Below are positions 1,746 through 60,126 of a stretch of DNA of 64,000 nt, piece by piece; the first letter of the stretch is position 1, and the number at the start of each line of letters is the position of its first letter. Made by a program: the position numbers and the translations under genes. A model generated the notes under the pieces. It saw only the letters and a program-made list of their open reading frames with translations, had not been told where the DNA came from and ran no database searches. The stretch covers positions 307,474 to 371,473 of the forward strand of contig NW_027331378.1 in assembly GCF_022965805.1 (NCBI RefSeq), read 5' to 3'. Source of the DNA: Primulina eburnea (Eukaryota; Streptophyta; Magnoliopsida; Lamiales; Gesneriaceae).

Positions 1746-2003
1746 CGATCGGACGATCCGATCCTCTTCGGACGATCCGATCCACTTCGGACGATCCGAA
1801 CCCTGTACCCTTCGGACCTTCCGAACCCTTATCGGACGATCCGAACCCTGCATGTCTTCCACGTGTCCAGACACCTGTCTTCGGACGATCCGAACCCTGA
1901 TCTGACGATCCGAACTCTGCATGTCTTCCACGTGTCCAGCCACCTGTCTTCGGACGATCCGAACCCTCTTCGGACGATCCGAACCCGGTTCGGTCCTTCC
2001 GAT
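1746..2003. repeat. Array of TTCGGACGATCCGAA units
   Basis: Ten units of the dyad CGGACGATCCG or close variants begin at 1750, 1769, 1788, 1813, 1833, 1882, 1902, 1951, 1971 and 1991. Spacings are 19, 19, 25, 20, 49, 20, 49, 20 and 20. Both 49-bp gaps contain the same phrase with a G-box, CCACGTGTCC, so this part has been duplicated as a module of about 69 bp. Confidence 0.9.
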
Positions 2004-2060
2004 CCCACCGAAATATAATTAATCCAATAATTAACTCAAATTAGGCATCGGGATACTACA

Positions 2061-2767
2061 CTTTTTCTTCCATGCCAGATCTCATACGGTGTTTTCAAAT
2101 GATTCTTATTAATCATTGATCTGTTTTGAGTGTAACACGCAGTGTTCACTGCTTCTGCCCAAAACCTTTGAGAGATACTAGAATCAGCAAGCATTGTTCT
2201 AGCAGCTTCCTTAAGTGTTCGATTTCTCCTTTCAGCTACACCATTTTGCTGAGGAGTTCTTGCTGCTGAGAGTTCATGTTTGATTCCAGTATTCTCTAAA
2301 TAATTTGAAAGAATTTGATTGATGAATTCAGTTCCTCGATCGGATCTGATTCTGTCAATTCCAACTGATTTTTCATTTGATAATCTTTTGAAAAGCTTGA
2401 TCAGTTGAGCAGCAGTTTGGTCTTTGGTCTTGAGAAAAATGACCCATGTGAATCTAGAAAAATCATCTACAACCACCAAGGTGTATTTCATTCCCCCTAA
2501 GCTCATCACCGGTATTGGACCAAAGAGATCCATATGTAACAGCTCTAAGCAACGGGAAGAAGATTTACGACCCTTGTACTTAAAAGAAGATTTGATTTGT
2601 TTGCCAAACTGACATGCTGAGCAAATTTTGTCTTTTGTAAAATCCATTTTGGGCAGCCCAGTAACAAGATCATGTTTACTCAAATATGCAATGGATTTGA
2701 AATTCAAGTGGTTTAGCCTCTTATGCCATAACCAGTTTTTCGAAGATTTTGAAGCAATAAGACACAC
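2061..2767 (-). pseudogene. Copia integrase with GAG-pre-integrase domain (3' truncated)
   Basis: A Ty1/copia integrase, which inserts the element's cDNA into the host genome. The pre-integrase zinc site is visible as WHKRLNHLNF followed by CSACQFGKQ. The catalytic core follows with HMDLFGPIPV, SDRGTEF and NGVAERRNRTLKEAA, so all three acidic residues (D, D, E) are present. The frame is then cut after TPYEIWHGRKSV by the LTR ending at 2060. Reverse transcriptase and RNase H are therefore gone. It continues from the protease frame just upstream. A stop codon at about 2906, from a CAG codon, separates the two. Confidence 0.9.
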
Positions 2768-3181
2768 TGGTGCATAGGGTTGATCATTCCAGCTGACTTT
2801 GTATGTGTTTCCACATCTTTTGCCAGTTAGAATGATCTCATCAGTTGAGTTTTTGACTGAGCAAATGAGTTTGTCAAATTGAACTGAAAATCCATTATCG
2901 CATAACTAACTGATGCTTATCAGATTATACTTGAGATTTTCAACTAATAAAACATTATTAATGACAAAATTACCATGGATAAGCTTACCCTTACCCACAG
3001 TTGTACCTTTCGAGTTGTCTACAAAACTACTCTTTGGTCCAGTGTATTTGACCAGTTGAGATAATAACCTTGAATCTCCTGTCATGTGGCGTGAACATCC
3101 ACTGTCTAGATACCATATAGATCCAGTGCTTGTACCTGTTACCTGCAGTCAAATACAAAATAAGATTGTGGTACCCTTTGT
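2768..3181 (-). pseudogene. Copia aspartic protease region
   Basis: The minus strand encodes the copia protease motif WYLDSGCSRHMTGD near 3075-3115. The usual glycine-rich loop and the segment NLISIS follow. A TAG in the codon after that segment (about 2906) breaks the frame to the integrase. The catalytic DSG is intact. It is continuous with the Gag frame upstream, which is normal for copia, where one polyprotein is cut by its own protease. Confidence 0.8.
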
Positions 3182-11727: not shown

Positions 11728-12053
11728 CGCCCATATGCGCCAACAATGTCGCGCATATGCGCCAGTTATAAAAACTAGCATTTGTCTTCTCGCGCATATG
11801 CGCAAATTATTCCGTGCATATGCGCCAATCATTCTGCCTATCCCGCGCATATGCGCCATTTATGTCGCGCATATGCGCCAGTTATGCAAACTAGCTCTTT
11901 GACTTCTCGCGCATATGCGCCACTTTTCTCGCTCATATGCGCCGTACCTACTGCCCCTCCCGCGCATGTGCGCCATTTACGTCGCGCATATGCGCCAATG
12001 CTACTGGACGTTCCGCGCATGTGCGCGCATTCAAGTCGTGCATGTGCGCGGGG
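11728..12053. repeat. Array of CGCGCATATGCGC units in pairs
   Basis: Twelve units. Their CATATG (or CATGTG) centres start at 11732, 11754, 11795, 11817, 11848, 11870, 11912, 11934, 11965, 11987, 12018 and 12041. Spacing within pairs is 22 or 23 bp every time. Between pairs it is 41, 31, 42, 31 and 31 bp. All values are near multiples of 10.5 bp. Confidence 0.95.
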
Positions 12054-16197: not shown

Positions 16198-17180
16198 ATG
16201 CCTCCTACATGTGTTATTGATCATGAGAGCCGTGAGGCTCGTGATGATCAGAGAGCTTCCCCTCCACGTCCAACACCAGACCTTCAGGCTCAGATGCTCG
16301 AGGAAATGACTCATTTCTTTGCGCAGTTTGCGAGGAACAATGCTGAGGTGGATAGGAAGACAAGGCCTGAGGCAGTGTATGAGCGATTCCCGAAGATGGA
16401 CCCTAAGGACTTTGGGGGTAGGACTTATCCCATTGTGGCAGAGGGATGGATTAAGTCCATAGTGGGGATCTTTACCTTTATGGAACTACAGAATACTGAT
16501 AGGGTTATTTGCTGAAGGACGATGCTCCGTTATGGTGGGAAGGAGCATCAGTGTCGGTGAATCTGCAAACTCCGACTTGGGAAGGCTTCAAGGAGGTTTT
16601 CTACTCCAAGTACTTTACAGATGAGGTACACTCCCGACTGACTAGGGAGTTTATGACTTTGAGGCAAGGAGACAACAGGGTGGCGGAGTTCGTGAGGAAG
16701 TTTGAGCAAGGGTGTCATTTCGTGCCCCTGATAGCTAATGACGCAAGGGAGATAATGAGGCATTTCTTGGATGGATTACAGCTGATCTTGCGCCGTGATG
16801 TTCGTGTAGCTGGTCCTCCTACCTATGCCGTTGTAGTGACCAGAGCTTTGGCAACTGAACACGATCATAAGGACATTGAGATTTACAGGCAGGGGAAGAG
16901 GCCCCCTCAGGCTCCGCAGCAACGGTTTCAGCAGCCAACTAAGAGGCCGTTTCAAGGGCCTAAAAGGGAAAAGGACAGCAACCACAGAAGAAGGCTGCTC
17001 AGAAACTTACTGAATATTCGGTGTGCCCAAAGTTCAGTCGCAAGCATGAGAAAGAGTGTCTAGGGGGTTCTGGCAAGTGATTCAAGTGTGGATCCACTGA
17101 CCACATGCTCAAGAACTCTCCACAGTGGAAGTAGCCGACTCAGGGCCGTGTCGTTGCGATGCATGCCGAGGAGGTAGATC
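16198..17180 (+). pseudogene. Element A Gag (broken)
   Basis: It begins MPPTCVIDHE about 200 bp after the primer-binding site. The retrotransposon Gag capsid region follows, with FPKMDPKDFGGRTYP, LWWEGA, FYSKYFTDEVHSRLTREFMTLRQGD and VAEFVRKFEQGC. A frameshift near 16505 puts the two halves in different frames. The second half runs to a stop at 17063. Beyond it a degraded zinc-knuckle region (FKCGSTDHMLKN) and the spacer phrase AMHAEEVDP are still visible up to about 17180. The F-family cluster then interrupts the element before the protease. The family is chromovirus-like, most similar to B within this window. Confidence 0.85.
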
Positions 17181-17558: not shown

Positions 17559-17560
17559 AA

Positions 17561-18140
17561 TGATGTGAATCCTCGTACGAATAAATAGCAAACACGATCT
17601 ATTTAGAATCGCGTCCTCAATTCAATAACGAACAAAGAATCGTTGTTGTCTCGAGCAACAAATAATCACGAAATAAAAAACCAAATTTATGACGAACCTT
17701 CAAAGAACTCGTCTTTGACAATCCGCGTAAGAACGATTGAAAAACGCCACAAAGTAAAACTTTGATAAGTTTGATTTTTGAAGAACAAAGCAAGAGCCTT
17801 GAAAGTTGAGAGAAAAATCTCAAAGTTTGATATTCAATCAATAATAATCTGAATTGTCTCAAAAAATTCGTCCAATATCTTTTACATACTCAAAAGATAA
17901 CAATATCTAGTTGCCAAAATAATAGGACTCTAATCAAAGAAACAAATAATTTCTCGAAAACGACCTCACGCTCGGGCGGTAGATTATGACCGCTAGAGCG
18001 CCGAGGGTTCTAGCCTATTCGCGCTCGAGCAGTAGAAAATGCCCGCTCGGGCGCCGAGTATTCTGGAAATCAACTCTTGGGCAGTACATTTGGCGCTCGG
18101 GCGGTAGTATTTTACCGCTCGGGCGCGGAGCATTCTGGAC
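17561..18140 (-). mobile_element. F-family LTR (copy 1)
   Basis: The left end, TGATGTGAATCCTCGTACGAATAAA (17561), matches TGACGTGAATC...ACGAATAAA at 45382. The two LTRs run colinear through AAATAGCAAACACGAT, the AAAACGCCACAAAG stretch (TTTGATAAGTTTGAT) and TTGAGAGAAAA..CTCAAAGTT. In the upstream part they differ: here the array word is CGCTCGGGCG. The right edge is approximate. It has pol-tail sequence on one side and a primer-binding site on the other. Confidence 0.75.
17968..18126. repeat. Array of CGCTCGGGCG-type units
   Basis: Seven units start near 17970, 17992, 18023, 18045, 18073, 18095 and 18117. They have forms such as CGCTCGGGCGGTAG and CGCTCGGGCGC. Spacings are 22, 31, 22, 28, 22 and 22 bp. 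They lie in facing pairs, with the GCGGTAG and CCGCTC halves opposing. Confidence 0.85.
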
Positions 18141-20518: not shown

Positions 20519-22133
20519 TGTAATAGCCGAGCCCGGTGTACGGTATGGTTTAAGTTTTCGTATGTTATAGATTTATTGATTAAGTTTAAGTTTAGTTGTG
20601 ATGTTAAGAGTTGTGATTATGGGCCATAGTATTGTTTGTTATTTTGTCTTGAGGTGTGGTTGATATTGTTAGTTGTTGGTTGTTGCATTGTTTTGGTTCG
20701 ATTTTAGTTGCCTTAGATTTTGTCTTGGCCGTGACCAGACCGCACCTGCACTCAGTGTAAGGACCGCACCCGCGGTCGTAATTGTTGGATTTTGTGGGTT
20801 TTACCGTGGATTCACCGCACCCGCGGTGATGTTAGTACCGCACCCGCGCTGTAGACCGTACCCGCGGTAATTGCAGGACCGCACCCGCGGTCGTCGATTT
20901 CAGAATTTTTGGTGGAGTGCCGTGAGCTTACCGCACCCGCGGTACAAGAGTAGCGCACCCGCGGTGATGAACAGTAGAGGTATGGTCGAGATTTTAAAGT
21001 GCTTTTTGGATAAGTTGACTTCACTTTTTCCCTTTCCTTTCTTCTCCATCTCGATTTTCTCTTGGAAAACAAGGGTTTTCTCTTATTTCTTTCATTTCCC
21101 ATCTTTGATTCAAGATTCTAGTTGGATTTTCGAGTTGAGATCGAGGTTCTTGGTTGCTCTAAGAAGTTAAGGTAAGCTTTTGGTTGTTTTATTTCTTGGT
21201 TTTGGAGAAGAGATGATTTGGGTTTGTTGTATTTGTTGGTTTAATGGGTTATTTGACTTATGTTCTTGGATATTGAGTTGATGATGGTGTTATTAATGGA
21301 CTATTGTTGTAGGTGGTGTATCAAGAGCTTAGATTGAGGTGTTCTTGTGGTTTGTAAGTGGAATTTCATCCCTTGTGCTCACATGACTATATATGTATTG
21401 TGTTTCAAAGATTTTAATGTGTTATTCCCTTCATTGGCTTCATAATTATGTATTGATTCACTTGTATATCTATTGGAGGCATTGTATGTCTCAATTGTAT
21501 TGAAATGGGAATACAAAGAGTATAGTTTCCAAAGTGTTTGATAAATGTCAAAGAGAGAGTTTAAATGTTTTATGGATTGATAGATACATAGTCAGAGATT
21601 GCATGCAATTAGTTGATCAACGACCAAAGGCTTATATCCCTCAGAGTTATCGATTTATATCGATGGGATACGAGCACTACAGACAGAGTTACTATTGATA
21701 TCAATCCATACCAGAGAAAAGAGAAATACCATCTCATTGTTATTGTTATTGCTATGTTAATTATGATTCATAGATTGATGGTATTCAATGTTTTAAAGCC
21801 ATGTTTTACAGAGTATGCTATGTTCATTGCTATGTAAGAGTTCCACTTGCTGAGTTTTATACTCATTTCAGTTATTTCATGTGATGCAGATAAGAGCGAC
21901 GGACCGGGACGTTGACTTTGGACAGGGGGTCATATGCATGCCATGTTGGAAGGAAGATTTTTGGACATGATCATAAGAATGATATTTTGTATTTTGCTTT
22001 GTCATTTAAATGATCATATATATATTTTATTGTAAAGATGTTTGAAGAAATGTATTTTGAAACTCCTTCCATATATTTGAAAGAAAATTTTAAATTCCGC
22101 TGTATTTTAATTGTAACGGGTCAAGGTGTCACA
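20519..22133 (+). mobile_element. Element C 5' LTR
   Basis: It starts TGTAATAGCCGAGC and ends CAAGGTGTCACA, 1615 bp. It carries an eight-unit palindrome array at 20740-20966. Translations inside it, such as the 74-codon one at 21613, recur at the same place in the 3' LTR and are not genes. Confidence 0.95.
20739..20966. repeat. ACCGCACCCGCGGT array, element C 5' LTR
   Basis: Eight units. The first C of each CCGC core lies at 20740, 20764, 20815, 20838, 20856, 20879, 20931 and 20953. Spacings are 24, 51, 23, 18, 23, 52 and 22. The first unit is degenerate (CCGCACCTGCAC). Confidence 0.95.
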
Positions 22134-26724: not shown

Positions 26725-28325
26725 TGTAATAGCCGAGCTCGGTGTACGGTACGGTTTAAGTTTTCGTATGTTATAGATTTATTGATTAAGTTTAAGTTTA
26801 GTTGTGATGTTAAGAGTTGTGATTATGGGCCATAGTATTGTTGGTTATTTTGTCTTGAGGTGTGGTTGATATTGTTAGTTGTTGGTTGTTGCGTTGTTTC
26901 AGTGTTTTGGTTCGATTTTAGTTGCCTTAGATTTTGTCTTGGCCGTGACCAGACCGCACCCGCACTCAGTGTAAGGACCGCACCCGCGGTCGTAATTGTT
27001 GGATTTTGTGGGTTTTACCGTGGATTCACCGCACCTGCGGTGATGTTAGTACCGCACCCGCGGTGTAGACCGCACCCGCGGTAATTGCAGGACCGCACCC
27101 GCGGTCGTCGATTTCAGAATTTTTGGTGGAGTGCCGTGAGCTTACCGCACCCGCGGTGATGAACAGTAGAGGTATGGTCGAGGTTTTAAAGTGCTTTTTG
27201 GATAAGTTGACTTCACTTTTTCCCTTTCCTTTCTTCTCCATCTCGATTTTCTCTTGGAAGACAAGGGTTTTCTCTTATTTCTTTCATTTCTCATCTTTGA
27301 TTCAAGCTTCTAGGTTGATTTTCGAGTTGAGATCGAGGTTCTTGGTTTCTCTAAGAAGTTAAGGTAAGCTTTTGGTTGTTTTATTTCTTGGTTTTGGAGA
27401 AGAGATGATTTGGGTTTGTTGTATTTGTTGGTTTAATGGGTTATTTGACTTGGGTTCTTGGATATTGAGTTGATGATGGTGTTATTAATGGACTATTGTT
27501 GTAGGTGGTGTATCAAGAGCTTAGATTGAGGTGTTCTTGTGGTTTGTAAGTGGAATTTCATCCCTTGTGCTCACATGACTATATATGTATTGTGTTTCAA
27601 AGATTTTAATGTGTTATTCCCTTCATTGGCTTCATAATTATGTATTGATTCACTTGTATATCTATTGGAGGCATTATATGTCTCATTTGTATTGAAATGG
27701 GAATACAAAGAGTATAGTTTCCAAAGTGTTTGATAAATGTCAAAGAGAGAGTTTAAATGTTTTATGGATTGATAGATACATAGTCAGAGATTGCATGCAA
27801 TTAGTTGATCAACGACCATAGGCTTATATCCCTCAGAGTTATCGATTTATATCGATGGGATACGAGCACCACAGACAGAGTTACTATTGATATCAATCCA
27901 TACCAGAGAAAAGAGAAATACCATCTCATTGTTATTGTTATTGCTATGTTAATTATGATTCATAGATTGATGGTATTCAATGTTTTAAAGCCATGTTTTA
28001 CAGAGTATGCTATGTTCATTGCTATGTAAGAGTTCCACTTGCTGAGTTTTATACTCATTTCAGTTATTTCATGTGATGCAGATAAGAGCGACGGACCGGG
28101 ACGTTGACTGTGGACAGGGGGTCATATGCATGCCATGTTGGAAGGAAGATTTTTGGACATGATCATAAGAATGATATTTTGTATTTTGCTTTGTCATTTA
28201 AATGATCATATATATATTTTATTGTAAAGATGTTTGAAGAAATGTATTTTGAAACTCCTTCCATATATTTGAAAGAAAATTTTAAATTCCGCTGTATTTT
28301 AATTGTAACGGGTCAAGGTGTCACA
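26725..28325 (+). mobile_element. Element C 3' LTR
   Basis: 1601 bp, TGTAATAGCC to GTGTCACA. Nearly identical to the 5' LTR. It lacks one palindrome unit (about 22 bp near 20942-20964 in the other LTR) and has a small insertion (TTTCAGTG) near 26895. Confidence 0.95.
26952..27160. repeat. ACCGCACCCGCGGT array, element C 3' LTR
   Basis: Seven units at the same relative places as in the 5' LTR, the last one lost. Several units are closer to consensus here than in the 5' LTR. Confidence 0.9.
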
Positions 28326-40309: not shown

Positions 40310-40391
40310 TTCGGATCGTCCGATCAGGGTTCGGAAGGTCCGAAGTGTACCGGATCGGATCTTCCGAAGTGGATCGGATCTACCGATCGTT
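40310..40391. repeat. Short TCGGATCGTCCGA array in solo LTR G
   Basis: Four units at 40312, 40332, 40356 and 40375, with spacings of 20, 24 and 19 bp. They correspond to the promoter-proximal end of the ten-unit array at 1746-2003. The distal G-box modules are absent. Confidence 0.85.
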
Positions 40392-43017: not shown

Positions 43018-43430
43018 TGGCTTTGAAAAGTTGAGAGAAAATTCTCAAAGTTGATAAAATATCAATAATGAACAAAAGTTAAAAGTTTACATGGTGTTCT
43101 AACTTATATATAGTTAACAAAACCCTAAATATAAAAATTGCATATTTAAAGATATCAAATCTAGCCAAAATAATTAAAACTCTAACATAAATAATTAAAA
43201 CTCTAATTTAAGAAAAATATTCTCGGTCAAAACTCTAGGACACGGACCCCGTGTATGCCTCCGGGTGAGGGTCCGTGTAGGCTCTGTAACATTACTCTCC
43301 GGAAAACAATGGACACGGACCCCGTGCACAGGTCCGTGCTCGGGTCCGTGTAGACTCGGGTTTCTCCTTCTCGACTGTACTGGGCACGGACCCCGTGTAC
43401 AGGTCCGTGTACACGTCCGTGTAGCCTCGG
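43018..43430 (-). mobile_element. F2 3' LTR, truncated
   Basis: 43020-43355 repeats 45672-46012 almost base for base. It then continues through one more array block (43356-43430) that the other LTR lacks. Confidence 0.8.
43238..43425. repeat. CACGGACCCCGTG array, three higher-order units
   Basis: The dyad CACGGACCCCGTG begins at 43241, 43314 and 43385, spacings 73 and 71. Each is followed by one or two inverted half-units GGTCCGTG. The other F2 LTR (45898-46015) holds two of the three blocks. Confidence 0.9.
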
Positions 43431-44863: not shown

Positions 44864-44865
44864 AC

Positions 44866-45243: not shown

Positions 45244-45246
45244 GAA

Positions 45247-45269
45247 TTTTTTTTTTTTTTTTTTTTTTT
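45247..45269 (-). repeat. Poly(A) tract of 23 on the minus strand
   Basis: A run of T on the plus strand between the primer-binding site and the leader array. Length may be unreliable. Confidence 0.8.
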
Positions 45270-45367
45270 GTAGATTCAACAACAACGTTGAAATCGCTAC
45301 ACGAAAATCGGTATTGAAATCCTACGAAGAATTGAATGGATATGCTTACTTGAATCAAAAACCTTGA

Positions 45368-45379
45368 GCTCTGATACCA
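45368..45379 (-). promoter_or_regulatory. Primer-binding site of F2
   Basis: TGGTATCAGAGC on the minus strand, two bases after the LTR end (45382). Confidence 0.9.
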
Positions 45380-45381
45380 AA

Positions 45382-46018
45382 TGACGTGAATCTTGATACG
45401 AATAAATAGCAAACACGATTGAAATAAATCGCACCCTCTATTCAATTACAATATTAAGACCCGTGTTGTTTTCCCGATCTTTTGATTCAAGTATGTTGTG
45501 ATATTCACCTCTAAACTAGCAAGAGTTTAGCAACAAATAAACACGAGGATAAACAATCGAAAACTATACGAAACTTCGAAGAACTTCGCCTACGACAATC
45601 CGCACAAGCAACGATCGACAAACGCCACAAAGTTAAAAACTTTGATAAGTTTGATTTTGATTTAACAAAGCTTGGCTTTGAAAAGTTGAGAGAAAATTCT
45701 CAAAGTTGATAAAATATCAATAATGAACAAAAGTTAAAAGTTTACATGGTGTTCTAACTTATATATAGTTAACAAAACCCTAAATATAAAAATTGCATAT
45801 TTAAAGATATCAAATCTACTTGCCAAAATAATTAAAACTCTAACATAAATAATTAAAACTCTAAATTAAGAAAAATATTCTCGGTCAAAACTCTAGGACA
45901 CGGACCCCGTGTATGCCTCCGAGTGAGCGTCCGTGTAGGCTCTGTAACATTACTCTCCGGATAACAATGGACACGGACCCCGTGCACAGGTCCGTGCTCG
46001 GGTCCGTGTAGACTCGGT
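45382..46018 (-). mobile_element. F2 5' LTR
   Basis: Starts (plus strand) TGACGTGAATC and shares its backbone with 17561-18000. TATA-like TATATATAA on the minus strand at about 45760-45767. A two-block CACGGACCCCGTG array lies at 45898-46015. The upstream end is fused to D's LTR at TCATAATC. Confidence 0.8.
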
Positions 46019-46695
46019 CATAATCATATCAAGATATAGATAATAACAAGTAGTTGATTTTGGTTGGGAACTCAAATGTGATCTCCTTTGAGTCTTGATT
46101 CCCCAAACAAAACATGTACTATACATTTCTTGCACAGTCGCTGTCACGGTCGTAAAGACGAATCTGAAATGGAAATGTGGATATACAATCTATCAATCTC
46201 TCATCTAATCAACACATATCCAAGTCACTACGTGATCTCGATATAATTTGACAGCATAACGACATATATTCGTAATACCGGTCAATCCAATCTCAACAAA
46301 TATCAACATATACCATCCTCAACTCACAATCGAATTATATGCACAAAACCATACTCAAAATCGATACATCTTATTCCTAAACATGCTGAAATTCATAAGA
46401 AATGCATACGACATCCTTTCTTTGTTCTAGTTTCGATTATAAACTCATAATCCTCACTAGAATATCTAAATACAGTCATAATAGCATTTCCCTTACATGA
46501 AATTCTTGAAACATGTTAGAACTGAATAAAAAGTGTACCCTTTCAAAGCCTTCGACGCAAGGAACAAGAATCTTAACTCGGATTATAATTTGGATGGCTA
46601 AATCTTGAGATATCTACCTTTAAAGCCTTGAGAATTGGAGGAATTCTCGGTTCTGCCTGCTGAAAATGAGAAGAAGGTGATTCATGTTCGAGTTA

Positions 46696-46703
46696 TATTT
46701 ATA
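46696..46703 (-). promoter_or_regulatory. TATA box of D LTR
   Basis: TATAAATA on the minus strand, about 50 bp downstream of the array. Also present at 53429-53436 in the other LTR. Confidence 0.75.
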
Positions 46704-46753
46704 CCCCTGCCATGTGTCAAGTTGAGAACAAGAGTGGATGTCTCGCATGCAGC

Positions 46754-46980
46754 ACCGCGGGTGCGGTACTGTAAGGAGCGCGGGTGCGCCCAGCTTTCGG
46801 CAGAAATATAATTTTCCAAAACAGTCGACCGCGGGTGCGGTCATGTAAACACCGCGGGTGCGGTCTCAGCACCGCGGGCGCGGTCTAATTCTACCGCAGG
46901 TGCGGTGTGGCTACGGGAATTTTACTAACTTTCTGCCCATTGCACCGCGGGTGCGGTGCTTGCCAGACCGCAAGTGCGGT
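46754..46980. repeat. ACCGCGGGTGCGGT array, D 3' LTR
   Basis: Eight units at 46754, 46777, 46828, 46851, 46871, 46893, 46944 and 46967. Spacings are 23, 51, 23, 20, 22, 51 and 23. Same word and same orientation relative to transcription as in element C. Confidence 0.95.
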
Positions 46981-47076
46981 CTTGCACAATTAAAATTTCA
47001 TATTTTATCGCATCGTTTCGCCCCGTCTGTTCTTGCGTTTCATATTCAACTATCTACAAGAATCTCAGGCATTACA

Positions 47077-47090
47077 TTTCTCCCCCTCTA
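47077..47090 (-). promoter_or_regulatory. Polypurine tract of element D
   Basis: AGAGGGGGAGAAA on the minus strand directly before the LTR start TGTAATGCC. Confidence 0.9.
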
Positions 47091-47179
47091 AGAAATGATT
47101 TCGTCCTCGAAATCGCATGTCATTCTATCAATGCAAGTATAAAAGTAATCACATCAAAACTAAACAAATACTTACATCA

Positions 47180-48600
47180 TATAAATAACTCGGGGTGTTT
47201 CTGCCTCATGTCTGCCTCTGTTTCCCAAGTCGCTTCCTCGATGCCATGACGACTCCACTGCACTTTCACAAGTGGAATAGTCTTCGTTCTGAGTTGCTTG
47301 TCTTTCCGATCAAGAATCTGTATCGGTTGTTCCACATACTCAAAGTCTGATCAAGTTCAGCTTCGTCAAGTTGAATGACATGAGAAAAATCAGGCATGTA
47401 TTTACGCAACATCGATACATGAAACACGTCATGTATTCCGGATAGAGAAGGAGGAAGAGCAAGTCTGTAAGCTCGATCGCCAATTTTCTCAAGAATTTCG
47501 TAAGGCCCAATGTATCGAGGAGATAGTTTCCCGCGTTTGCCAAATCTTACAACGCCTTTGAAAGGAGAAATATTTAAGAATACTCTATCTCCTGCCTCAA
47601 ATACTAATGGTCTACGTCGGATGTTGGCGTACTTTGCTTGTCTATCCTGTGCTGTCTTCATTCTTTTCTGAATAACTTTCACCTTCTCAGTCATGTCACG
47701 AATCATGTCTGGCCCCAGTTCTGGTACTTCTGAGATATCATCCCAATATAGCGGAGATCTGCACTTCTTGCCATACAAAGCTTCAAACGGTGCCATCTCG
47801 ATGCTTGTCTGATAGCTGTTATTGTAAGAAAATTCGCAAAGAGGAAGGGAATCTTGCCAACTAATGCCAAAAGCTAGCACAACGGCTCTCAACATATCCT
47901 CTAGAGTCTGGATAGTCCGTTCTGACTGTCCGTCTGTCTGAGGATGATAAGCAATACTCAGGTGTAAAGTCGTACCTAGAGCCTGCTGTAGACTGTGCCA
48001 AAAGTGAGAAGTGAATCGTGGATCACGATTTGATACGATAGACTTCGGCACTCTATGCAATCTGACTACCTCTCGAATATATATCTCTGCCATCTGATCT
48101 TGTCTATACGTCATTCTGTACGGGATAAAACAAGCTGATTTGGTCAATCTGTCGATAACGACCCAAATCGCATCACAGCCTCGGGAAGATCGGGGTAACT
48201 TCGTCACGAAATCCATGGAAATGTGATCCCATTTCCATTCAGGAATAGACAAACTCTGAAGTAACCCTCCGGGCTTCTTCCTCTCGGCCTTCACCTGTTG
48301 GCAATTTAAGCATTTAGACACATATTTGGCGATATCTGACTTCATTTGCTTCCACCAGAACTGTGTCTTCAAGTCGTTGTACATCTTTCGGCCACCAGGA
48401 TGGATGCTGAACCGACTGCAGTGTGCTTCGGACATAATCTGATGTCTCAAATCTGAAACGTCTGGCACTACAAGGCGGTTATTCACGTACAGCACATGAT
48501 CATGTACCTGATATTCTGACATATGCCCTGATCTGACCATTTGAATTGATCTTTGCACGTTCTGATCTCTTCTCTGTGCTTCTTTGATCCTCATAATCAA
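47180..48600 (-). pseudogene. Element D integrase, catalytic Asp changed
   Basis: The zinc-binding end [18 protein letters not shown]...[12 protein letters not shown] is intact. The core has [13 protein letters not shown] and TDGQSERTIQTLE, but reads VSNRDPRFTSHFW where VSDRDPRF is expected. The second catalytic Asp is therefore Asn. The C-terminal part NNSYQTSIEMAPFEALYGKKCRSPLYW and FEAGDRVFLNISPFKG is intact up to FHVSMLRKYMPDFSHV. A frameshift near 47345 moves the chromodomain-like end (EEATWETEADM) into another frame. It joins the RT frame across a stop at 48650. Confidence 0.9.
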
Positions 48601-48649
48601 ATCAGGTTCAACTTGGATCGTAGCAAGTCGGAGTGGCTTACTATCTGTA

Positions 48650-50098
48650 TCAAATTCCTAATCCAGACAAGCAGCATTTCTCAACTAAATTATTAACACC
48701 TATCGTCGATAAGGATAAGGCACATACCTTTCGACTCAAGGCATCTGCTGCTGCATTTAACTTTCCTGGATAATATTTGATTTCACAATCAAAATCTTTT
48801 AGTAGATCAAGCCATCTACGCTGCCTCATGTTCAGTTCTGACTGAGAAAATAGATACTTTAGGCTTTTGTGATCGGAGTAAATCTCACATTTCTCGCCAT
48901 AGAGATAGTGACGCCAGATCTTTAATGCAAATACGATAGCCGCCAATTCCAGATCATGAATGGGGTATCGTACTTCATGTGGCTTCAGTTGTCTCGAGGC
49001 GTATGCGATCACATGACCTCGCTGCATAAGTACACATCCCAAACCTCTGTGAGAAGCATCACAATAGACAACGAAATCACCCATACCTGAAGGTATCGTC
49101 AACACTGGAGCACTAGTCAGTCTTTTCTTCAATTCTAGGAAGCTAGACTCGCACTCCTCTGACCAAATGAATGGCATATTCTTCTGTGTCAATTGTGTGA
49201 TTGGCTTTGCAATACTGGAGAAATCTTGAATAAATCTTCGGTAGTATCCTGCAAGACCCATGAAACTGCGTATTTCTGGTACCGAAGTCGGTCTTGGCCA
49301 ATTGATCACAGCTTCGACTTTACTCGGATCTACAGAAATACCATCTCCAGAAATAATATGCCCCAAGAATACAACTCGATTCAGCCAAAACTCACACTTT
49401 GACAATTTCGCATACAGTTGTTCGTTTCTCAACGTCTGCAAGACAATTCTGAGATGCTCTGCATGCTCATTTCTGTTCTTCGAATACACCAAAATATCAT
49501 CAATGAAGACAATCACAAATTCATCCAAATATCTCTGAAACACTTGGTTCATCAAGCCCATAAATACCGCAGGAGAATTTGTTAAACCAAAAGGCATGAC
49601 AATAAATTCGTAATGTCCATACCTGGTTCGAAATGCTGTCTTCGGTATATCTACATCTCGAACTCTGAGCTGATGATACCCAGAACGCAAATCAATCTTA
49701 GAATAGACAGAAGATCCCTGTAATTGATCAAAAAGATCGTCAATTCTAGGCAAAGGATATTTGTTCTTGATCGTTGCCTTATTCAGTTGCCGGTAGTCTA
49801 TACACAATCGCATCGAACCGTCTTTCTTTCGCACAAACAGCACAGGAGCGCCCCAAGGAGATACACTAGGTCTGATATATCCCTTGGCCAGAAGATCTTC
49901 CAACTGTGCTTTCAATTCTTTTAGTTCGATGGGTGCCATCCTATACGGAGCTCTCGAAATAGGGACGGTACCTGGTACAAGATCAATACTAAAATCTACC
50001 TCTCGCACCGGAGGTAATCCTGGGATCTCATCTGGAAAAATATCTGCAAATTCCCGCACTACTGGAAGATCCGCCAATGCCGGGCTCGACTTCTGCAT
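48650..50098 (-). CDS. Element D RT and RNase H
   Basis: 482 codons, intact within this segment. The linker [23 protein letters not shown] leads to [37 protein letters not shown] and catalytic [30 protein letters not shown] follows, then the RNase H with [53 protein letters not shown] and [16 protein letters not shown]. It is the best-preserved enzyme of D. Its methionine is not a real start, since it was made as part of a polyprotein. A frameshift near 50095 separates it from the protease. Confidence 0.9.
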
Positions 50099-50636
50099 AT
50101 CTACAGCAAAAATAAAGAAACCATCTGCTCCTTTTTTGTAACAATCTGTTCATAGTAAGAGCCGAAATCAAGGGAATCCGCGATCTGGAACCCTTCCCGT
50201 AGAATTTCCACTCGTCTGTCATCTCAGGTCTGAATCTGACAATCTTATAGAAACAATATACAGTGGCTCTGTACTTCGTTAGCATGTCAATACCGACTAT
50301 ACAATCGAAATCAGCTAGACCCAACACTATACAATCTAGGTCAATCTCATGCCCCTCAAACTGTAGAATGCAATGTCTAACCGTAGTTACAGATATCAAT
50401 CCACTTCCCAACGGAGAATTAATAGACACAACATCTAGCAAAGACTCAACAGGCAAGGAATGCAATAATGCAAATCGTTCTGAGATGAATGTATGCGATG
50501 CACCAGTATCTATTAATATATAAGCAGGATAACCGCAAAGGGAACAGTTACCTGCTATAACATCATCGGGGGCATCCTGTGCTTGCTCCTCTGTCAATGA
50601 AAAAACCTGAGCCTGTTGTCGGGGAGGTTGGCTCAC
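50028..50636 (-). pseudogene. Element D aspartic protease
   Basis: It opens [29 protein letters not shown], then the active site [13 protein letters not shown] and [17 protein letters not shown]. The catalytic DTG is intact. The frame runs out at 50028, after a shift relative to the RT. A TAG near 50661 separates it from the zinc-knuckle segment upstream. Confidence 0.85.
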
Positions 50637-50897
50637 GGTCTGGCTACCTCTGCCTCTGGGCTACGTCTGTGTCTGTGGTGGCTGAAAGGAGTGAACAGAT
50701 GAAGCTTGCCTCTCAGGCTGAGCTACAGATGCAGATGACCCTGCACCTTGAAATCTCTGTGAGCTTCTCTGAGGACACACTTTGGCGAAGTGCCCCTGTT
50801 GTCTACATATGTTACATCTGCCCACTATACCCTGGCACTGCTCTGTCGCATGTCTACCCCCACAAGAACTGCAGTAGACACCGGTATACTTGGTACT
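50637..50897 (-). pseudogene. Element D zinc knuckles of Gag
   Basis: Two CCHC-type motifs, [13 protein letters not shown] and [14 protein letters not shown], lie between two TAG stops (50896 and about 50661). These stops cut one original Gag-Pol frame. Confidence 0.8.
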
Positions 50898-51711
50898 CTA
50901 GTCAAAACCACTATGTCTGGATCCACTGGAGCTTGACGAACTGCTCCCAGGTCTTTTGAACTGCTTCCCTTTTACTTTCAACTGATCCTTTCGCCCGCTG
51001 CTACTACCGCCGCTTTCAAATCTAAGAGGAGGTTGTGCTGGAGGTAGTGGTGGTCTCGGACTCGGAGCAACATACGGAGCACTCCGTTGCCTAAGCAATC
51101 CTGCTTCTGCTCCTTTGGCACAGTTCAATGCCTCAGCGAAATTGTTGGGTCTTCCAGTATTTACCAACGTAAAGATATCGGGATTTAAGCCGTTTATGAA
51201 CTGATCTGCCACGGCTTCATCACTACCTGAAACATGAGGTGCAAAGCGAAGCGAGGAGGAAAATTTAGCGATGTACTCTTCGATGTTCAATTGCCCTTGC
51301 CTCAAGTTTGCAAATTCAGCGCCTTTATCTTTACGGTAGGATATAGGAAAGAATCGCTGATAAAACTCTGTCTTGAACACTTTCCATGTAATCTCCGTGC
51401 CACGCTGTTCCAATGCTCTTATAATATTCAACCACCAATTCTTAGCCACGTCTTGCAGTTGATGGCCAATGAGTTTGACTCTTTTCTCGTCACTGTATTC
51501 GAGAGACTCGAACAACATCTCGATATCCTCCAACCAGCTTTCACATTCGATGGAGTTCTCTGTTCCTTTTAAGGTAGGTGGTCTGAAGGACTGGAATCGT
51601 TTTAACAAAGTCTCCATGGGTAGTAGCCGTAACATCCATTGGATCCCCGGATGTGCTACCTTGTTCTGGTGCTGTGGGTCGCAAAGGTACGACTGCTCTA
51701 CGAGGAGGCAT
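50898..51711 (-). pseudogene. Element D Gag capsid
   Basis: The start MPPRRAVVPLRP at 51711 is in one frame. After a small indel near 51610-51640 the main part continues in another: METLLKRFQSFRPPTLKGTENSIECESWLEDIEMLFES, LQDVAKNWW, FYQRFFPISYRKDKGAEFANLRQG, EEYIAKFSSSLRFAPH. A proline- and serine-rich end follows before the stop at 50898. Same family as E's Gag. Confidence 0.9.
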
Positions 51712-51945
51712 GTATCTGGTATTCAACCAAGTTAGTATACAAGCTATACAAACTGTCTCAGCCCTCCTCTGATCATTTACCTCTGATCCAGAATCGGTTC
51801 TGATTCAGTTTATTACACGTTGTAATCAATCAGATAACAAACAACATGTAATAAAGAAAGCACTCAACATGCTAGCACAGCATAAGCAAGGAAGAAGACT
51901 CGATCTACCCCGCTCATTCTATCTTACCTCAATCTAAGGAACCTC

Positions 51946-51957
51946 GCTCTGATACCA
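51946..51957 (-). promoter_or_regulatory. Primer-binding site of element D
   Basis: TGGTATCAGAGC on the minus strand, five bases after the LTR end at 51963. Confidence 0.95.
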
Positions 51958-51962
51958 CCTGT

Positions 51963-53810
51963 TGTGGGGACCCGGGCTCTAATTCTTTTTCTTGGGATTA
52001 AATGGATCATTATTCTAAAACGCGGGTCAATTTTTCGCTTTTACATTTAATAAAATGTAACTAAACAAACATAAGTTCCTAATTTAATTTACAATATAAA
52101 ACATAAAATACATGTCTTGGTCTATATACAACTAGTGTTCACTATCATCTAAACTCAAATGATAGTACAAGTCTAACAAAAGAACCACTAGTCCTCTGCT
52201 GCGCCCGTAGTCACCACGCTATCACGATCATCTCTGTCTCGACCCAGATCCTGCCCCACCTGTTGTTATGCACACATACAGACATAACAACAGCCGGAAA
52301 ACCGGTGAGAACAAATCCCAGTATAAACATGTATACATGCATTAAAACAATCTAAACACATGAAACATGCTAATATGAATATCATTCATATAAAATCATG
52401 CAATGCGAATCTAATTATGTCTATACTCGACTCGACTAGAACTCTAGGGATCCCGTTGTGAATAAGACGGCACTGACTGTCACCTACCCTCCCAATCGAG
52501 GTGCTGACCGTCTTATTCCTAGACTTCGGCCTGATCTGTATCCGCGTCTACAATAGGGGCGGTGATCTTCCCCTAAGCTGTGATATCGCCGAACGTCTAG
52601 AAGTCTGGGTGATCTCTCAGACTTTCCTATCTTAATGCATGAATACAAAATCTGTAAACAAGCATGATCATCTTAATGCAATGCAACATGATCTGTAAAC
52701 AAAGCATAGCAAGATTTGCATACAAGTTCTAGAAACAAATCTATAAACAATCATAATCATATCAAGATATAGATAATAACAAGTATGTGATTTTGGTTGG
52801 GAACTCAAATGTGATCTCCTTTGAGTCTTGATTCCCCAAACAAAACATGTACTATACCTTTCTTGCACAGTCGCTGTCACGGTCGTAAAGACGAATCTGA
52901 AATGGAAATGTGGATATACAATCTATCAATCTCTCATCTAATCAACACATATCCAAGTCACTACGTGATCTCGATATAATTTGACAGCATAACGACATAT
53001 ATTCGTAATACCGGTCAATCCAATCTCAACAAATATCAACATATACCATCCTCAACTCACAATCGAATTATATGCACAAAACCATACTCAAAATCGATAC
53101 ATCTTATTCCTAAACATGCTGAAATTCATAAGAAATGCATACGACATCCTTTCTTTGTTCTAGTTTCGATTATAAACTCATAATCCTCACTAGAATATCT
53201 AAATACAGTCATAATAGCATTTCCCTTACATGAAATTCTTGAAACATGTTAGAACTGAATAAAAAGTGTACCCTTTCAAAGCCTTCGACGCAAGGAACAA
53301 GAATCTTAACTCGGATTATAATTTGTATGGCTAAATCTTGAGATATCTACCTTTAAAGCCTTGAGAATTGGAGGAATTCTCGGTTCTGCCTGCTGAAAAT
53401 GAGAAGAAGGTGATTCATGTTCGAGTTATATTTATACCCCTGCCATGTGTCAAGTTGAGAACAAGAGTGGATGTCTCGCATGCAGCACCGCGGGTGCGGT
53501 ACTGTAAGGAGCGCGGGTGCGCCCAGCTTTTCGGCAGAAATATAATTTTCCAAAACAGTCGACCGCGGGTGCGGTCATGTAAACACCGTGGGTGCGGTCT
53601 CAGCACCGCGGGCGCGGTCTAATTCTACCGCAGGTGCGGTGTGGCTACGGGAATTTTACTAACTTTCTGCCCATTGCACCGCGGGTGCGGTGCTTGCCAG
53701 ACCGCAAGTGCGGTCTTGCACAATTAAAATTTCATATTTTATTGCATCGTTTCGCCCCTTCTGTTCTTGCGTTTCATATTCAACTATCTACAAGAATCTC
53801 AGGCATTACA
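51963..53810 (-). mobile_element. Element D 5' LTR
   Basis: 1848 bp, intact. The minus strand starts TGTAATGCCTGAGATTC and ends GGGTCCCCACA. Array at 53487-53713, TATA box at 53429-53436. Terminal ends match the solo LTR at 9965-12189. Confidence 0.95.
53487..53713. repeat. ACCGCGGGTGCGGT array, D 5' LTR
   Basis: The same eight units and spacing as in D's 3' LTR, with one unit changed to ACCGTGGGTGCGGT. Confidence 0.95.
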
Positions 53811-54631
53811 TCATGGGTTGGCAAGGGGCGCTTGGCGATGGTTATGCAGTCTCTAGGAGTTCTAGGATAATCCTAGTTATGGTGGTTTATGGTTTGGTTG
53901 GCTAGGGAAAGCGCTAGAAATAGAAACGTGAAACCTGTACAGAAGTAGGTCTCAAGGAAGGGTTGTACGTGTTTGGCCTTAGGGTGTCAGTCAAGAGCTG
54001 GACCAGGGCTCCTGGATATGGTTTGGGACATGTCTTAGGGTCCTATGATGAGTCTTGTGGTGGTGGTTCATGGGTTGGATGGTCGGGTAGAGCGCTGGAA
54101 CTAGAAACTCTAAAGCTGCACAGAATTGTCCCTCACATGATGGGCTGTTACGGCTCTGATGTTTTGGAGCTTATGCGGGGATTCTGAGTTAAGAGGGCCT
54201 TAACCATGGTCTTATGTTATGTCTAATGGTCAAGTCTAGGCCTGATTTGAGTCAGTTTAAGCGTAGACTCGTTAGAAGCGCATATGGCTCGTAGCGCGTT
54301 TCCTAGGTTTAAGCACAGAATTGGCCCTCACATGGTTCGACTCTCAAGTCGTTCGTTAAGTCGTAGGCTATTTTAATTAATTCGGGAGTCGCATGTGTAC
54401 GTTTGGGCTTTTGTTCTAAGCTTAGTTATTTAAATTTTAAGGTTATGAAAACAAGTTCAAAGTGTTCCAACGAAGTCCACGATGATCGAAAATATGTATC
54501 ACCTACAAAATAATTACTTTTTTGAGATATGATATGTCTTGTGGCCAAATTATGTTACAGGTTTGGAAGCCGAAGAACGTGTCCAGGGACCTCTCCAACC
54601 TCTTCGGAGGATTATGATATGTTAGGGAGCG
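53811..54631 (+). mobile_element. Element A 3' LTR, third piece
   Basis: Starts with the second copy of TCATG and is colinear with 14340-15256 of the 5' LTR, with some deletions. Ends at GCGGAC, where the organelle-derived insert begins. Confidence 0.85.
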
Positions 54632-56702: not shown

Positions 56703-57700
56703 ACTTCTACCAACTCGGGTAGGATCCACTAGAAGACTTTGATTTATATAATACCTTGTACAAAACCACTCATCTTAGGACTTATGTTACTGCCTAACTG
56801 AACTTATAGTCTAGACTTAAGACAACACCTTTCAGCCAACACTTGTTTAACGTTTATGTGTCAAAGACTACATATACAAGTTTAATGTCTTCTTGCAAGA
56901 CTCACTTAGCTTTTCAGTACGCTCGATTCTCTGTGTATATGTGCGTGATGGTGTGTGCGTGTGTGAGAACTGATCTATGAATACAACATGAAAGTGTTCT
57001 CACACACTGAGTAATTGTGCTTCTAATCTAAGCTGATAACACGTTGAAGTGTTCCCTCAAATCTGGGGTTGTCGCTTCTTGTAAGCTGATATGCACACTT
57101 GTTTTTCCACAACCTTTCTTCACGCACTTGTTGATGGTCTTGATCTTGTATTTATAGAGGCAATGTGACCGTACATCAAGACTCATCAAATATGTTCATT
57201 GTAGTTTGAATTAGTTCCTTGAAATTTGTGTTTTGTACTTTCTGACAACCATTCTGGAACGTATTGACATTAGGCTCTGCTGCAACATTCATTATAGTCC
57301 TTCGATCGGACAGTTGCTTTTATAATGTTGTGCACAGCTGGATTCCACTTAGATAAGCTTATCTTGTTCTGCAAACTGATCGGATCCTAACTGATGCTCC
57401 GAACTGGTCTTGAACTGCTTTGGTGAAATCGGTTGGCTCGTCAATTGAATTGATTTCACTGATTCAGTTGAATTGGTCAGTTGGGCTACTCATCAGTTGA
57501 ACTCTTCATCAGCTAGTCATGCTTCTGAAGGTCTTTTGCTGAACCACCTATCAACTGAACTTGTCTTTGATATTTCAATTGGACTGGTTCAGTTGGGCAA
57601 TCGGTTGGCACTTTCAGTTTGCGTCTCGATAGCTTCAATTTTGTCTTGGTAACTGATTAGTTCGAAGCCTTATTAGTTTCAGTTTTCTACGCACTTAGGT
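56703..57700 (-). mobile_element. Copia LTR fragment
   Basis: Resembles the copia LTR at 5211-6145 in order and wording: AGAAGACTTTGAT, then CTTAGGACTTAT, a TATA box on the minus strand at 57149-57156, then a dense CAGTTG/AACTGA cluster at 57380-57640. No LTR ends or internal sequence were found. It is truncated at both sides. Confidence 0.6.
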
Positions 57701-58335
57701 AAATTTATTATAAAAAAAAAGTTTTGTTAACATCAAAAAAATGATTGCGAACCTGAAATGTTACAATATGGAGTCTTCTCTTCGCAGATAGTGTCGACAT
57801 CAATAAAGATCGATATCCCACAGATGAACTCTAAAAGGAGAACTCCTGCACACACTTCAAACAAAAAACTCGTGAATGGAATGTTGGAAGATTTTTTTGT
57901 TGTGTCCATTCCGATTATCAAGTCATTATTGAACTCACGAAAAAGAAAAAAATTCAAATTATATAAGTTCACACAAATTGCAATATGAACTAGACGAAAT
58001 TGAATGTGCAAACCTTGGTATTAATAGAGAAAAAATATAATGATGACCTCGAGGATAGGTTCCGAGGACTATACTTCAGCCGATATCCACTAACACGTTA
58101 ATTCTTGCCATCTGTACCACGATCCGTGCGACCTATTTCATCCATATTCTTGTCTAGTCAACCATACACCTTGTGCGTGTCGATTGACCTCCTCATGATT
58201 AACATACTATGTCGCTGACTAATCTATCGGACAAAGCTTTTACTCCTCGGATAATAACCACCTCTCCAGGTTAGTTCCCACATTTTATGTTTAGTTCGGA
58301 TGTGGTATCTTCACTCTACGACTTCGGTCTCGAAC
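57701..58335. other. Unassigned sequence
   Basis: No recognised element. A 92-codon frame on the minus strand (57733-58011) has a hydrophobic middle, but no relative I can name and no supporting start context. It may be the host DNA next to element E, whose first flanking bases are CGAAC (58331-58335). Confidence 0.3.
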
Positions 58336-60126
58336 TGTAAGGCTCGAGAATTATCGGTATCATTGATGTTGAAATTGTAGAGATAAGAATGCATGAATTA
58401 TGGAATTTTGAGCAGCAGGGCGAAGCCACACCGCCCCCGCGGTGCTAAGACTACCGCACCCGCGGTGTAGGTGACAGAAAGTTGGGAAATTTTGCGAAGC
58501 AACACCGCACCCGCGGTGATGCAAGAGCCGCACCCGCGGTGCTGAGACCGCACCCGCGGTGATGCAAGCGCCGCACCCGTGGTGAGTGAAATTCAGAACA
58601 TGGCATGGCTGCCGAGAGCTCAGCGCACCCGCGCCCTTACACTGCCGCACTCGCGATAGTGCGTGTCACTTGGAAAACATAACACTCGTCCCTTTGCATG
58701 CAATATTTGATATGTGTCTTCATTTCCTCCTTCATTCAGATTCAAGAACCGAGAGAGCTTAGAGGGAGGAACTTTCATTCTTTTGATCTTTAACTTGAGA
58801 GTTTGAATGATTTAGCCATCCGATTTATATTCCGAGTTAAGATTTGTGATCCTTGCATCGTTGGCTACGAAAGGATGTAAGTATTGTTCATTTCCAGCAT
58901 GTTTTGATATTTATGTGTTGAGGAAATTCAGATTTGAGTTCGAATATGTAGTCTTGAGATATAGAGCATCGTATATTCGTTGTCAGATTGAGTTTCGGAC
59001 ACAGTATGCTATTGTTTCGATTTTTCAGCATGTATTGTGTTGAGCATATGCAGATTTCAGCATGTATATTGATGTTAGATGAGATTACGAGTTGATTGTG
59101 ATTGAGTATGATATTATTGAGCTGAGCGGTATCGAAGAATTACGCCATTACGCCGTCGAATTATGTTGAAACCGATATCAGTCTTGTATATTGAATTGGT
59201 TGAGATGTATATTGATAGAGTACACATTGATTATGCCATTTCAGATTTATATTGGCTACTTGGTATTGGAGACTTCGACTACGACACAGACAGTGCGACG
59301 AAAGGTATAATTCATGTGGTCACGGGATTGCACAACTCGATTCAGATTTGATACGAGTTTCCCTAAATCACATACTAGATTGTTATTACATTTCATTATG
59401 TAATGCCTTGTTTATTGATTTATATTCGAGTCCTGAGATAGGAGATATTGGCAGACTTGCCAAAACTAGACGTTTCGGTGTATCGACGCATAGGAGCAGA
59501 TTTGCTATATGTGCAGACCCTCGATACAGAGTTGACCGAAGTCTAGGAATAAGACGTACCGTTGCCCCGAGTGGTTGGGTAGGTGACAGACCATCTTATT
59601 CATACGGGATCCCTAGATTAGAAATGAGTCGAGTCAAGATTTAAATGTGAATACAGATTTGTATTCTTCTACATGTTTAGATTTACATTCATGTTATTTG
59701 ATAGATGCTATGCTTGTGTACATGATTTATGACATTGTATGCATTCATGTTTTATACTGGGATATGTTCTCACCGGAGTTATCCGGCTGTTGTCGTGTGT
59801 GTATGTGTGCATGGCAACAGGTGGGGCAGGATCTGGGTCTCGAGCTAGATGAGAGATTGACGATAGCGTGGAGATCACGGGCGTTGCAGATTTCTAGTGT
59901 TTTCCTTTTGACTTGTACTACTTATGTTGTAGTTGGGATTTGAACACTAGCGTATGATTTTACCAAACAGACATGTATGTATATTATGTTGTTTATTTAA
60001 TACCAAGACATGATATGCTTTAGTTATACATTTAAATTAATGTTAAAAGCAAAATTTTGATCCACATTTTCGAACAAAGATCCAATTAAATCCCAAAAGA
60101 ATTGAGTTAGAGCCCGGGTCCCCACA
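58336..60126 (+). mobile_element. Element E 5' LTR
   Basis: 1791 bp, from TGTAAGGCTCGAG to GGGTCCCCACA. Its U5 half matches D's LTR in opposite orientation (around 59560, GTAGGTGACAGACCATCTTATTC). Array at 58431-58660. No clear TATA box. Confidence 0.9.
58430..58660. repeat. ACCGCACCCGCGGT array, element E
   Basis: Eight units with first C at 58431, 58454, 58505, 58528, 58548, 58571, 58623 and 58645. Spacings are 23, 51, 23, 20, 23, 52 and 22. The last two units are degenerate. Confidence 0.95.

Follow-up and report, generated by a model that had tools for sequence, protein, structure and literature searches.

Helically Spaced Arrays of CpG Dyads in Ty3-Type LTRs of Primulina eburnea as Probable Upstream Activating Arrays

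Introduction

What is the role of short CpG-rich palindromes that are repeated many times within the long terminal repeats (LTRs) of retrotransposons? The question was raised by a 64,000 nt stretch of Primulina eburnea DNA (contig NW_027331378.1, positions 307,474 to 371,473), which is referred to as the window. A sequence-only reading of the window had described five such words, each repeated in the U3 region of an LTR family, upstream of the TATA box where one was visible, and had proposed that dimeric proteins bind them on one face of the helix, as an enhancer or a platform for silencing. Here, we report that arrays built on one core, CGC-N4-GCG, recur in Ty3-type LTRs outside the window and that their sites follow a period of 10.5 bp. 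Judged from this arrangement, the arrays in the U3 region of Ty3-type LTRs are probably helically phased upstream activating arrays (enhancers) for dimeric proteins that would cooperate in pairs.

Results

Class A, B, and C Arrays in the Window

The window has the character of eukaryotic, plant-like DNA with nested LTR retrotransposons throughout, and the elements it carries point to a plant origin. All five words were found in the window in the copy numbers and at the positions that had been described. The word ACCGCACCCGCGGT (class A) was present in 20 exact copies, and in 36 when up to two mismatches were allowed, in LTRs starting near 20519, 26725, and 58338 and, on the minus strand, near 227, 47077, and 53811. 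Element E1 (Ty3-type, plus strand, 20519-28328) has a 5′ LTR at 20519-22136 and a 3′ LTR at 26725-28328, and the pair was 96.7% identical in a self-alignment. Its 5′ LTR harbors eight class A sites at 20739..20965 (plus strand; spacings of 24, 51, 23, 18, 23, 52, and 22 bp) and its 3′ LTR seven sites at 26953..27157 (plus strand). The LTRs of element E2 (Ty3-type, minus strand, 46018-53811) were also paired by self-alignment and harbor eight sites each on the minus strand, at 46754..46980 in the 3′ LTR (46018-47077; spacings of 23, 51, 22, 20, 23, 51, and 23 bp, with TATA 57.5 bp past the last center) and at 53487..53714 in the 5′ LTR (52751-53811). The related LTR starting near 58338 has eight sites at 58430..58657 (plus strand), and an array cut by the window edge at 17..127 (minus strand) has four sites, the last of them poor, with spacings of 23, 51, and 23 bp. 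Ten of the 24 long open reading frames (ORFs) of the window were scanned for protein domains. The scan revealed Retrotrans_gag/Ty3_capsid, an aspartyl protease, and the start of a reverse transcriptase (RT) between the LTRs of E1, and gag, RT, RNase H, integrase zinc-binding, and SH3_Tf2-1 domains of the Ty3 type in E2.

The class B word CGCGCATATGCGC had six exact copies within an array of 12 sites (GCGCATATGCGC) at 11728..12050 (minus strand). The sites are spaced by 22-23, 31, or 41-42 bp, TATA lies 59.5 bp past the last center, and the LTR start was placed near 12188 by eye. The class C word CGCTCGGGCG had four exact copies among six or seven sites of the form (C/G)CGC-YCGR-GCG(C/G), which alternate in orientation, at 17968..18126 (minus strand).

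We scanned the window for clusters of 12-mers and counted those with a word holding at least two CpG. Nine of the ten clusters were described arrays and one (17167-17581) was a 74-bp tandem repeat; the arrays of the class E word CACGGACCCCGTG surfaced with a word holding one CpG and are outside this count. Twenty control stretches of 10 kb, taken from the first 10.8 Mb of contig 1 with an LTR content unmatched to that of the window, contained two clusters of the counted type, and neither was a spaced dyad array. The 812,487,562-base assembly was then searched for exact words on both strands, with the reversed letters as a control. We found 52,056 copies of ACCGCACCCGCGGT (0 reversed), 9528 copies of the class D word TTCGGACGATCCGAA (0 reversed), and 20,718 copies of GGCGCATATGCGC (1 reversed), a near-palindrome for which some sites were counted on both strands. 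The array observation is real and holds well beyond the window.

A Common Core in LTRs Selected Independently of the Words

LTRs were also collected independently of the words, by means of an anchor that consists of the end of Ty3 pol, the polypurine tract, and the LTR start (TCGAGGACGAA..GGAG..TGTAA). This anchor was present at 10,215 places in the genome; its tract motif was derived from E1, E2, and the LTR near 227 (minus strand), and the sampled LTRs are called Ty3-type by this anchor. From the first 100 places, all on contig 1, we drew 60 LTR starts, 40 for variety of the tract sequence and 20 by list order. Arrays, defined as at least three sites, were present in 34 of the 60 LTRs and absent from 26 in a scan limited to the five window words, which arrays built from other words may have escaped. 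Eleven of the 34 arrays belonged to class A, nine to class B, and 14 to class C, i.e., to the first, third, and fourth words of the window, with 3-13 sites per LTR.

Alignment of the sites on their dyad centers gave CCGC-ACCC-GCGG for class A, GCGC-ATAT-GCGC for class B, and (C/G)CGC-YCGR-GCG(C/G) for class C, and thus the common core CGC-N4-GCG. CGC at −5 to −3 and GCG at +3 to +5 were present in at least 92% of the sites of each class, as called with patterns that contain the core and tolerate one to three mismatches. The exact core, counted without regard to class, occurred 197 times in the 34 LTRs with arrays (27.5 kb), 7 times in the 26 without (22.7 kb), and 6 times in 200 kb of other DNA, compared to 18, 1, and 4 occurrences of the reversed control GCG-N4-CGC. 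Equal frequency of the words in non-LTR DNA had been named as a refutation; instead, the core was rare in the other DNA sampled.

The words had been described as having no sequence in common. This fails for the class A, B, and C words; the class D and E words have the form CGG-N5-CCG and CGG-N3-CCG. Five unrelated words are rejected, as three are one core with different centers. The words are also family-specific only in part, since more than one LTR group uses each of the three classes.

Helical Spacing of the Sites

The 34 sampled and five window arrays were grouped by flank similarity, which resulted in 24 groups at an identity of 0.75, 4 at 0.70 (single linkage), and 30 at 0.80. The representatives of the 24 groups provided 152 gaps between adjacent sites. 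Eighty-nine of these were 18-24 bp long, i.e., the sites sit in pairs about 22 bp apart. The 63 larger gaps measured 31 bp (17), 41-44 bp (11), 49-53 bp (31), 62 bp (1), or 72-74 bp (3), and none fell elsewhere. When all distinct arrays were considered, including both LTRs of E1 and E2, there were 93 larger gaps with a single additional value (47 bp, once).

The distance spectrum of the 24 representatives peaked at 10.5 bp with a power of 0.62. The maximum power was 0.13 when each gap was jittered by up to 5 bp and 0.22 when the gap classes were jittered per array (3000 trials each; p < 1/3000), and the six gap-class means gave p = 0.0007 at 10.5 bp. Periodicity over many LTRs, on which the sequence-only reading had staked its proposal, was borne out among the 60 LTR starts sampled. 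For the window alone, p values at 10.5 bp were 0.024 (class A), 0.011 (class B), and 0.011 (class C), and with the period left free they were 0.095, 0.003, and 0.046, respectively. The places of exact words in the genome, limited to those listed first and overlapping the fetched loci in part, gave peaks at 10.5 bp for class A (power 0.53, 106 distances) and at 10.6 bp for class B (power 0.93, 70 distances). Counted genome-wide, two cores at a spacing of 22 bp were found at 51,139 places and the reversed pattern at 651. The proposed spacing near whole turns applied to classes A, B, and C; it did not apply to the class D array TTCGGANNNTCCGAA (19-20, 49, and 25 bp), and for CACGGACCCCGTG it could not be demonstrated.

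The sites within a class A pair point in the same direction. Class C pairs are mirrored, with GCGC..GCGG followed by CCGC..GCGC (GG|CC about the middle) in 31 of the 42 pairs that belong to the eight commonest kinds. In 4 of the 42 pairs, mostly in LTR L061, T..A replaced the outer G..C at both ends together. The mirrored arrangement suggests that class C pairs may be bound by a dimer of dimers.

Conservation of Words and Spacer Lengths, and the Region up to TATA

E1, E2, and the LTR near 58338 share an identical plan of eight sites. Their words were 86-90% identical and their spacers 52-63% (41-44% after shuffling), while spacer lengths agreed within 2 bp (10, 37, 9, 4, 9, 38, and 8 bp in E1; 9, 37, 8, 6, 9, 37, and 9 bp in E2; 9, 37, 9, 6, 9, 38, and 8 bp in the LTR near 58338). 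The DNA preceding the array aligned between E1 and E2 with a score of 22.0, no better than shuffled DNA (mean of 22.1); some similarity was seen for this DNA in the other two pairs and for the DNA following the array. Words and spacer lengths were steady amid diverged surroundings, and we concluded that word and spacing are kept while much of the nearby sequence drifts.

It is conceivable that the spacing has no function and is a by-product of tandem duplication of one promoter segment and common descent. Some arrays do contain larger duplicated units, such as 11728-11880 and 11844-11997 in a self-alignment, and the LTRs collapse to four groups at a flank identity of 0.70. Such a history does not explain the steps of about 10 bp between inter-pair distances, with none of the 63 larger gaps at 32-40 or 54-61 bp, nor does it explain words that stay while spacers diverge, and we consider it very improbable.

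TATA was present within 160 bp downstream of 27 of the 41 class A, B, and C arrays, a count that includes the two LTRs of each of E1 and E2. In 21 of these 27 arrays, the distance from the last center to TATA was 52-60 bp. The six other distances were 22.5 bp (L078, in which a degenerate eighth site runs into a TA repeat), 62.5 bp, 65.5 bp, and three near 144 bp. We analyzed 22 linkers between array and TATA, 20 from the genome and two from window LTRs. TGCATG or CATGCA was present in 20 of them (0.5 expected from shuffles) and ACGTG or CACGT in 17 (1.6 expected). In the 26 LTRs lacking arrays, TGCATG or CATGCA occurred within 55 bp upstream of 9 of the 35 TATA sites. CATGCA is the RY box of seed promoters, and the RY-type and ACGTG/CACGT boxes are a hint of expression in seed, embryo, or pollen.

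Exchange of Word Sets and Decay of CpG

On a flank tree of 22 LTRs with TATA, class changed 5 times, compared to 10.3 times for shuffled labels (lowest value 6), indicating that class follows lineage but switches. The sole small mixed clade with a support of at least 80 (93) placed the class C LTR L069 together with two class B LTRs, L085 and L040. L069, L078, and L085 are closely alike over approximately the first 85 bp and are then followed by different arrays. Whole word sets seem to have been exchanged between LTRs, likely by recombination. On a second LTR scaffold (start TGTAATAGCC/TGTAATATCC; L054, L055, L086, and L087), which had no TATA by the rule used, some LTRs carry class A and others class C arrays.

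All 32 changes in 552 class A CpG cells were C>T or G>A, as were seven of the nine changes in 372 class B CpG cells. These changes fit methylated, decaying silent copies.

Two explanations that involve DNA methylation have to be considered here. The arrays may be an anti-silencing platform, at which a protein encoded by the element or hijacked by it binds the motif, strips DNA methylation from it or prevents its deposition, and evolves along with its target, as VANC does on VANDAL elements. VANDALs are DNA transposons. According to the passages of PMC5735166 and PMC10398659 that we used, VANC targets are dense, short motifs in non-coding DNA of transposable elements (TEs), differ between related TEs, and were grown by tandem duplication. 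The arrays resemble them in being dense and non-coding and in having spread by tandem duplication within one TE group; they are family-specific only in part, as words are common to several LTR groups. That closely related LTRs differ in their words, and that the CpG changes are those expected of methylated silent copies, would also agree with this explanation. However, the sites described here are CpG dyads, while the VANC motif YAGTATTAY is neither a dyad nor contains CpG, and the VANC passages are without helical spacing. The VANC system has a known element-encoded binder. Phasing and the anchoring to TATA favor action in the promoter, and we regard anti-silencing as unlikely. Even so, VANC targets provide the best model for the fast turnover of words.

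Alternatively, host repressors may read the words, which would make the arrays a silencing platform. CpG-rich dyads and deamination-like changes are in line with this. A purely harmful target should vanish, yet words and spacer lengths persist across diverged families and exact copies of the words number tens of thousands, which leaves this explanation little probability. Of these two functions, the enhancer fits better, because words and spacer lengths are retained among related elements whose spacer sequences have diverged.

Folding of the Arrays as RNA

Palindromes could also act in transcripts, as hairpins that feed small RNAs, which was proposed for maize Sireviruses (precedent cited in the part of PMC10760457 that we used). 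We folded 14 arrays, seven from the window and seven chosen from the 34 sampled, and all of them folded better than dinucleotide shuffles (z of −1.9 to −9.1). When the words were kept and only the spacers were shuffled (25 shuffles each), the energy was unchanged (z of −1.9 to +1.1); consequently, there was no sign in these arrays of structure selected beyond the short words, which alone explain the folding energy, and a selected RNA structure was rejected. Hairpins need neither a phasing of 10.5 bp nor a fixed distance to TATA, and a role as hairpins or as a source of siRNA appears improbable.

Class D and E Arrays and Other Features

TTCGGACGATCCGAA (class D) had four exact copies among the ten sites (TTCGGANNNTCCGAA) of an array at 1748..2003 (minus strand) with spacings of 19-20, 25, and 49 bp, no phasing at 10.5 bp, and TATA 15 bp past the last center. 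Four divergent variants at 40310..40387 (plus strand) belong to a second, shortened LTR copy that TATA adjoins. Spacings of 20, 49, and 25-26 bp were seen in the window, L029, and L032; the latter two are separated by about 5.9 kb and may represent both LTRs of a single element. The Ty1/copia integrase ORF at 2036-2905 ends abruptly near 2060, where the class D LTR starts, and read by eye this LTR is an insertion into the integrase gene.

The class E word CACGGACCCCGTG was present in three copies at 43241-43397 and in two at 45899-45984, together with single half-sites. The first array (CACGGGGTCCGTG, minus strand, half-sites included) spans 43241..43430, with TATA 135 bp from the last center, and the second (45899..46017, minus strand) lies in the other LTR copy of that element, which is truncated. 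This class E element (43018-46017) is wedged exactly between the leader (42234-43017) and an LTR (46018-47077) of E2; both of its own LTR copies are truncated, and no clear target duplication was seen by eye. Its internal region has 11 TGAACAGTAATT-like 12-mers at irregular spacing and without CpG (44870-45241). E2 itself has the layout LTR-internal-LTR-leader over 42234-53811, and the 784-bp leader beside its 5′ LTR recurs with 99.6% identity past the other LTR, which suggests recombination between copies. Rfam families and tRNA genes were not found within the window.

Outside the window, TTGCTGCTGGAA-like words without CpG were repeated in array form in L021 (7544-7710) and L025 (2662-3021 and 7499-7856). 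Five GGCATTTTCGTA-like copies 26-28 bp apart, which are not a CpG-rich dyad, lie near the Ty3-type LTR start of L068 (42-163).

Discussion

In the enhancer mechanism that we favor, each CGC-N4-GCG dyad would be bound by one protein dimer, and two dimers about 22 bp, i.e., two turns, apart would form the working unit. Further units at near-integer numbers of turns would bring all dimers to one face of the DNA. Where an LTR has a clear TATA, the unit nearest to it would mostly be fixed 52-60 bp upstream, and an RY-type (CATGCA) box and ACGTG/CACNTG boxes lie in the interval. Specificity would be set by the central 4 bp together with the outer base, so that one scaffold with different words could serve different host factors, which are probably paralogous. 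Dimeric binders agree with the dyad symmetry and with the inversion of class C sites within a pair. The sequence shows the words, their core, pairing, spacing, and position relative to TATA; that proteins bind, cooperate, and activate the element, and that they come from the host, is what we infer from this layout.

Several results weigh against this interpretation. The number of independent lineages is uncertain because the group count shifts strongly with the identity threshold; the lineages are related, and their spacings are not independent. Under the harshest null, in which the gap classes of all arrays were jittered together as one inherited set, the period of 10.5 bp gave p = 0.008, and the class A array of the window with a free period gave only p = 0.095. 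Pair-to-pair distances at the first 50 places with 22-bp pairs, mostly of class C, peaked at 9.0 bp (0.58), with a power of 0.55 at 10.4 bp and 0.53 at 10.5 bp. One spacing rule for all families failed in the window at 10.5 bp for class D (TTCGGANNNTCCGAA, p = 0.25), and class E has too few sites to show it (CACGGACCCCGTG, p = 0.36). No TATA was detected by the rule used for 14 of the 41 class A, B, and C arrays, and three class C arrays are 144 bp away from it. Since the linkers are partly alike between classes (median identity of 0.61-0.63 compared to 0.55 after shuffling), the fixed distance to TATA and the shared boxes may in part be inherited. Finally, the arrays grew partly by tandem duplication. 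Placement of the sites on one face at near-whole turns upstream of TATA was well supported for the CGC-N4-GCG arrays and not for two of the five window families. The initial observation is only partly confirmed, because the number of LTR groups depends on the identity threshold and the claim of unrelated words fails for three of the five.

Sireviruses belong to the Ty1/copia elements, and the parts of Bousios et al. (2010, PMC2829016) that we used describe repeated motif (RM) boxes in them. These boxes are palindromic, CpG-rich words in high copy number, in most cases a single word for each element family, and they cluster in the upper part of the LTR, not far upstream of TATA. Twelve of the 13 listed RM words have a CGG-CCG core, and the boxes were called Sirevirus-specific; a term search of PMC2829016 found no analysis of spacing or periodicity in the text searched. 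By analogy, the best reading of the arrays described here may be that they are the Ty3 counterpart of these palindromic boxes. Like RM boxes, they cluster in the LTR upstream of TATA where it was detected. RM boxes are recognized by at least eight palindromic copies per element; the sites here number 3-13 per LTR. Unlike RM boxes, they are hosted, in E1 and E2, by Ty3-type elements, have CGC-N4-GCG instead of CGG-CCG in classes A, B, and C, and are quantized in their spacing. By sequence, classes D and E of the window, with CGG-Nx-CCG, are nearer to the Sirevirus boxes; they do not show the spacing rule.

The enhancer boxes of tobacco Tnt1 are said to be few and direct; the arrays differ from them in having as many as 13 dyads, set in pairs along the helix, and words that are common to families. 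Tandem repeats in the U3 region of Tnt1 are named in PMC3601003, which, in the passages used here, describes LTR U3 regions as poorly conserved and with few recognizable motifs besides TATA. Among the matches listed from the open-licence literature (titles and starts of abstracts), none described dyad arrays with helical spacing in Ty3 LTRs, and the term 'palindrom' was absent in the searched text of PMC11656987. A literature text search matched one or more of the words in 424 papers; the 15 matches listed contained only CGCTCGAGCG, in unrelated contexts, and the search was uninformative.

The arrays represent a strict geometric rule in the U3 region that is legible from sequence alone, with tens of thousands of word copies in this one genome. 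They provide a handle on the factors that would drive Ty3 elements, and on whether CG methylation silences these elements by blocking the sites. A broader idea, which we put forward tentatively and with some doubt, is that Ty3 retrotransposons use a combinatorial promoter code. In this code, dyad pairs, near-integer turns, and a TATA anchor would make up a fixed helical frame into which whole word sets are swapped, so that lineages may change which dimeric CpG-reading factor, out of a diversifying family, drives or protects them, in an arms race fought by word replacement. If the factors were found, regulator switching in retrotransposons would consist of the change of whole word sets on one scaffold, with the frame kept.

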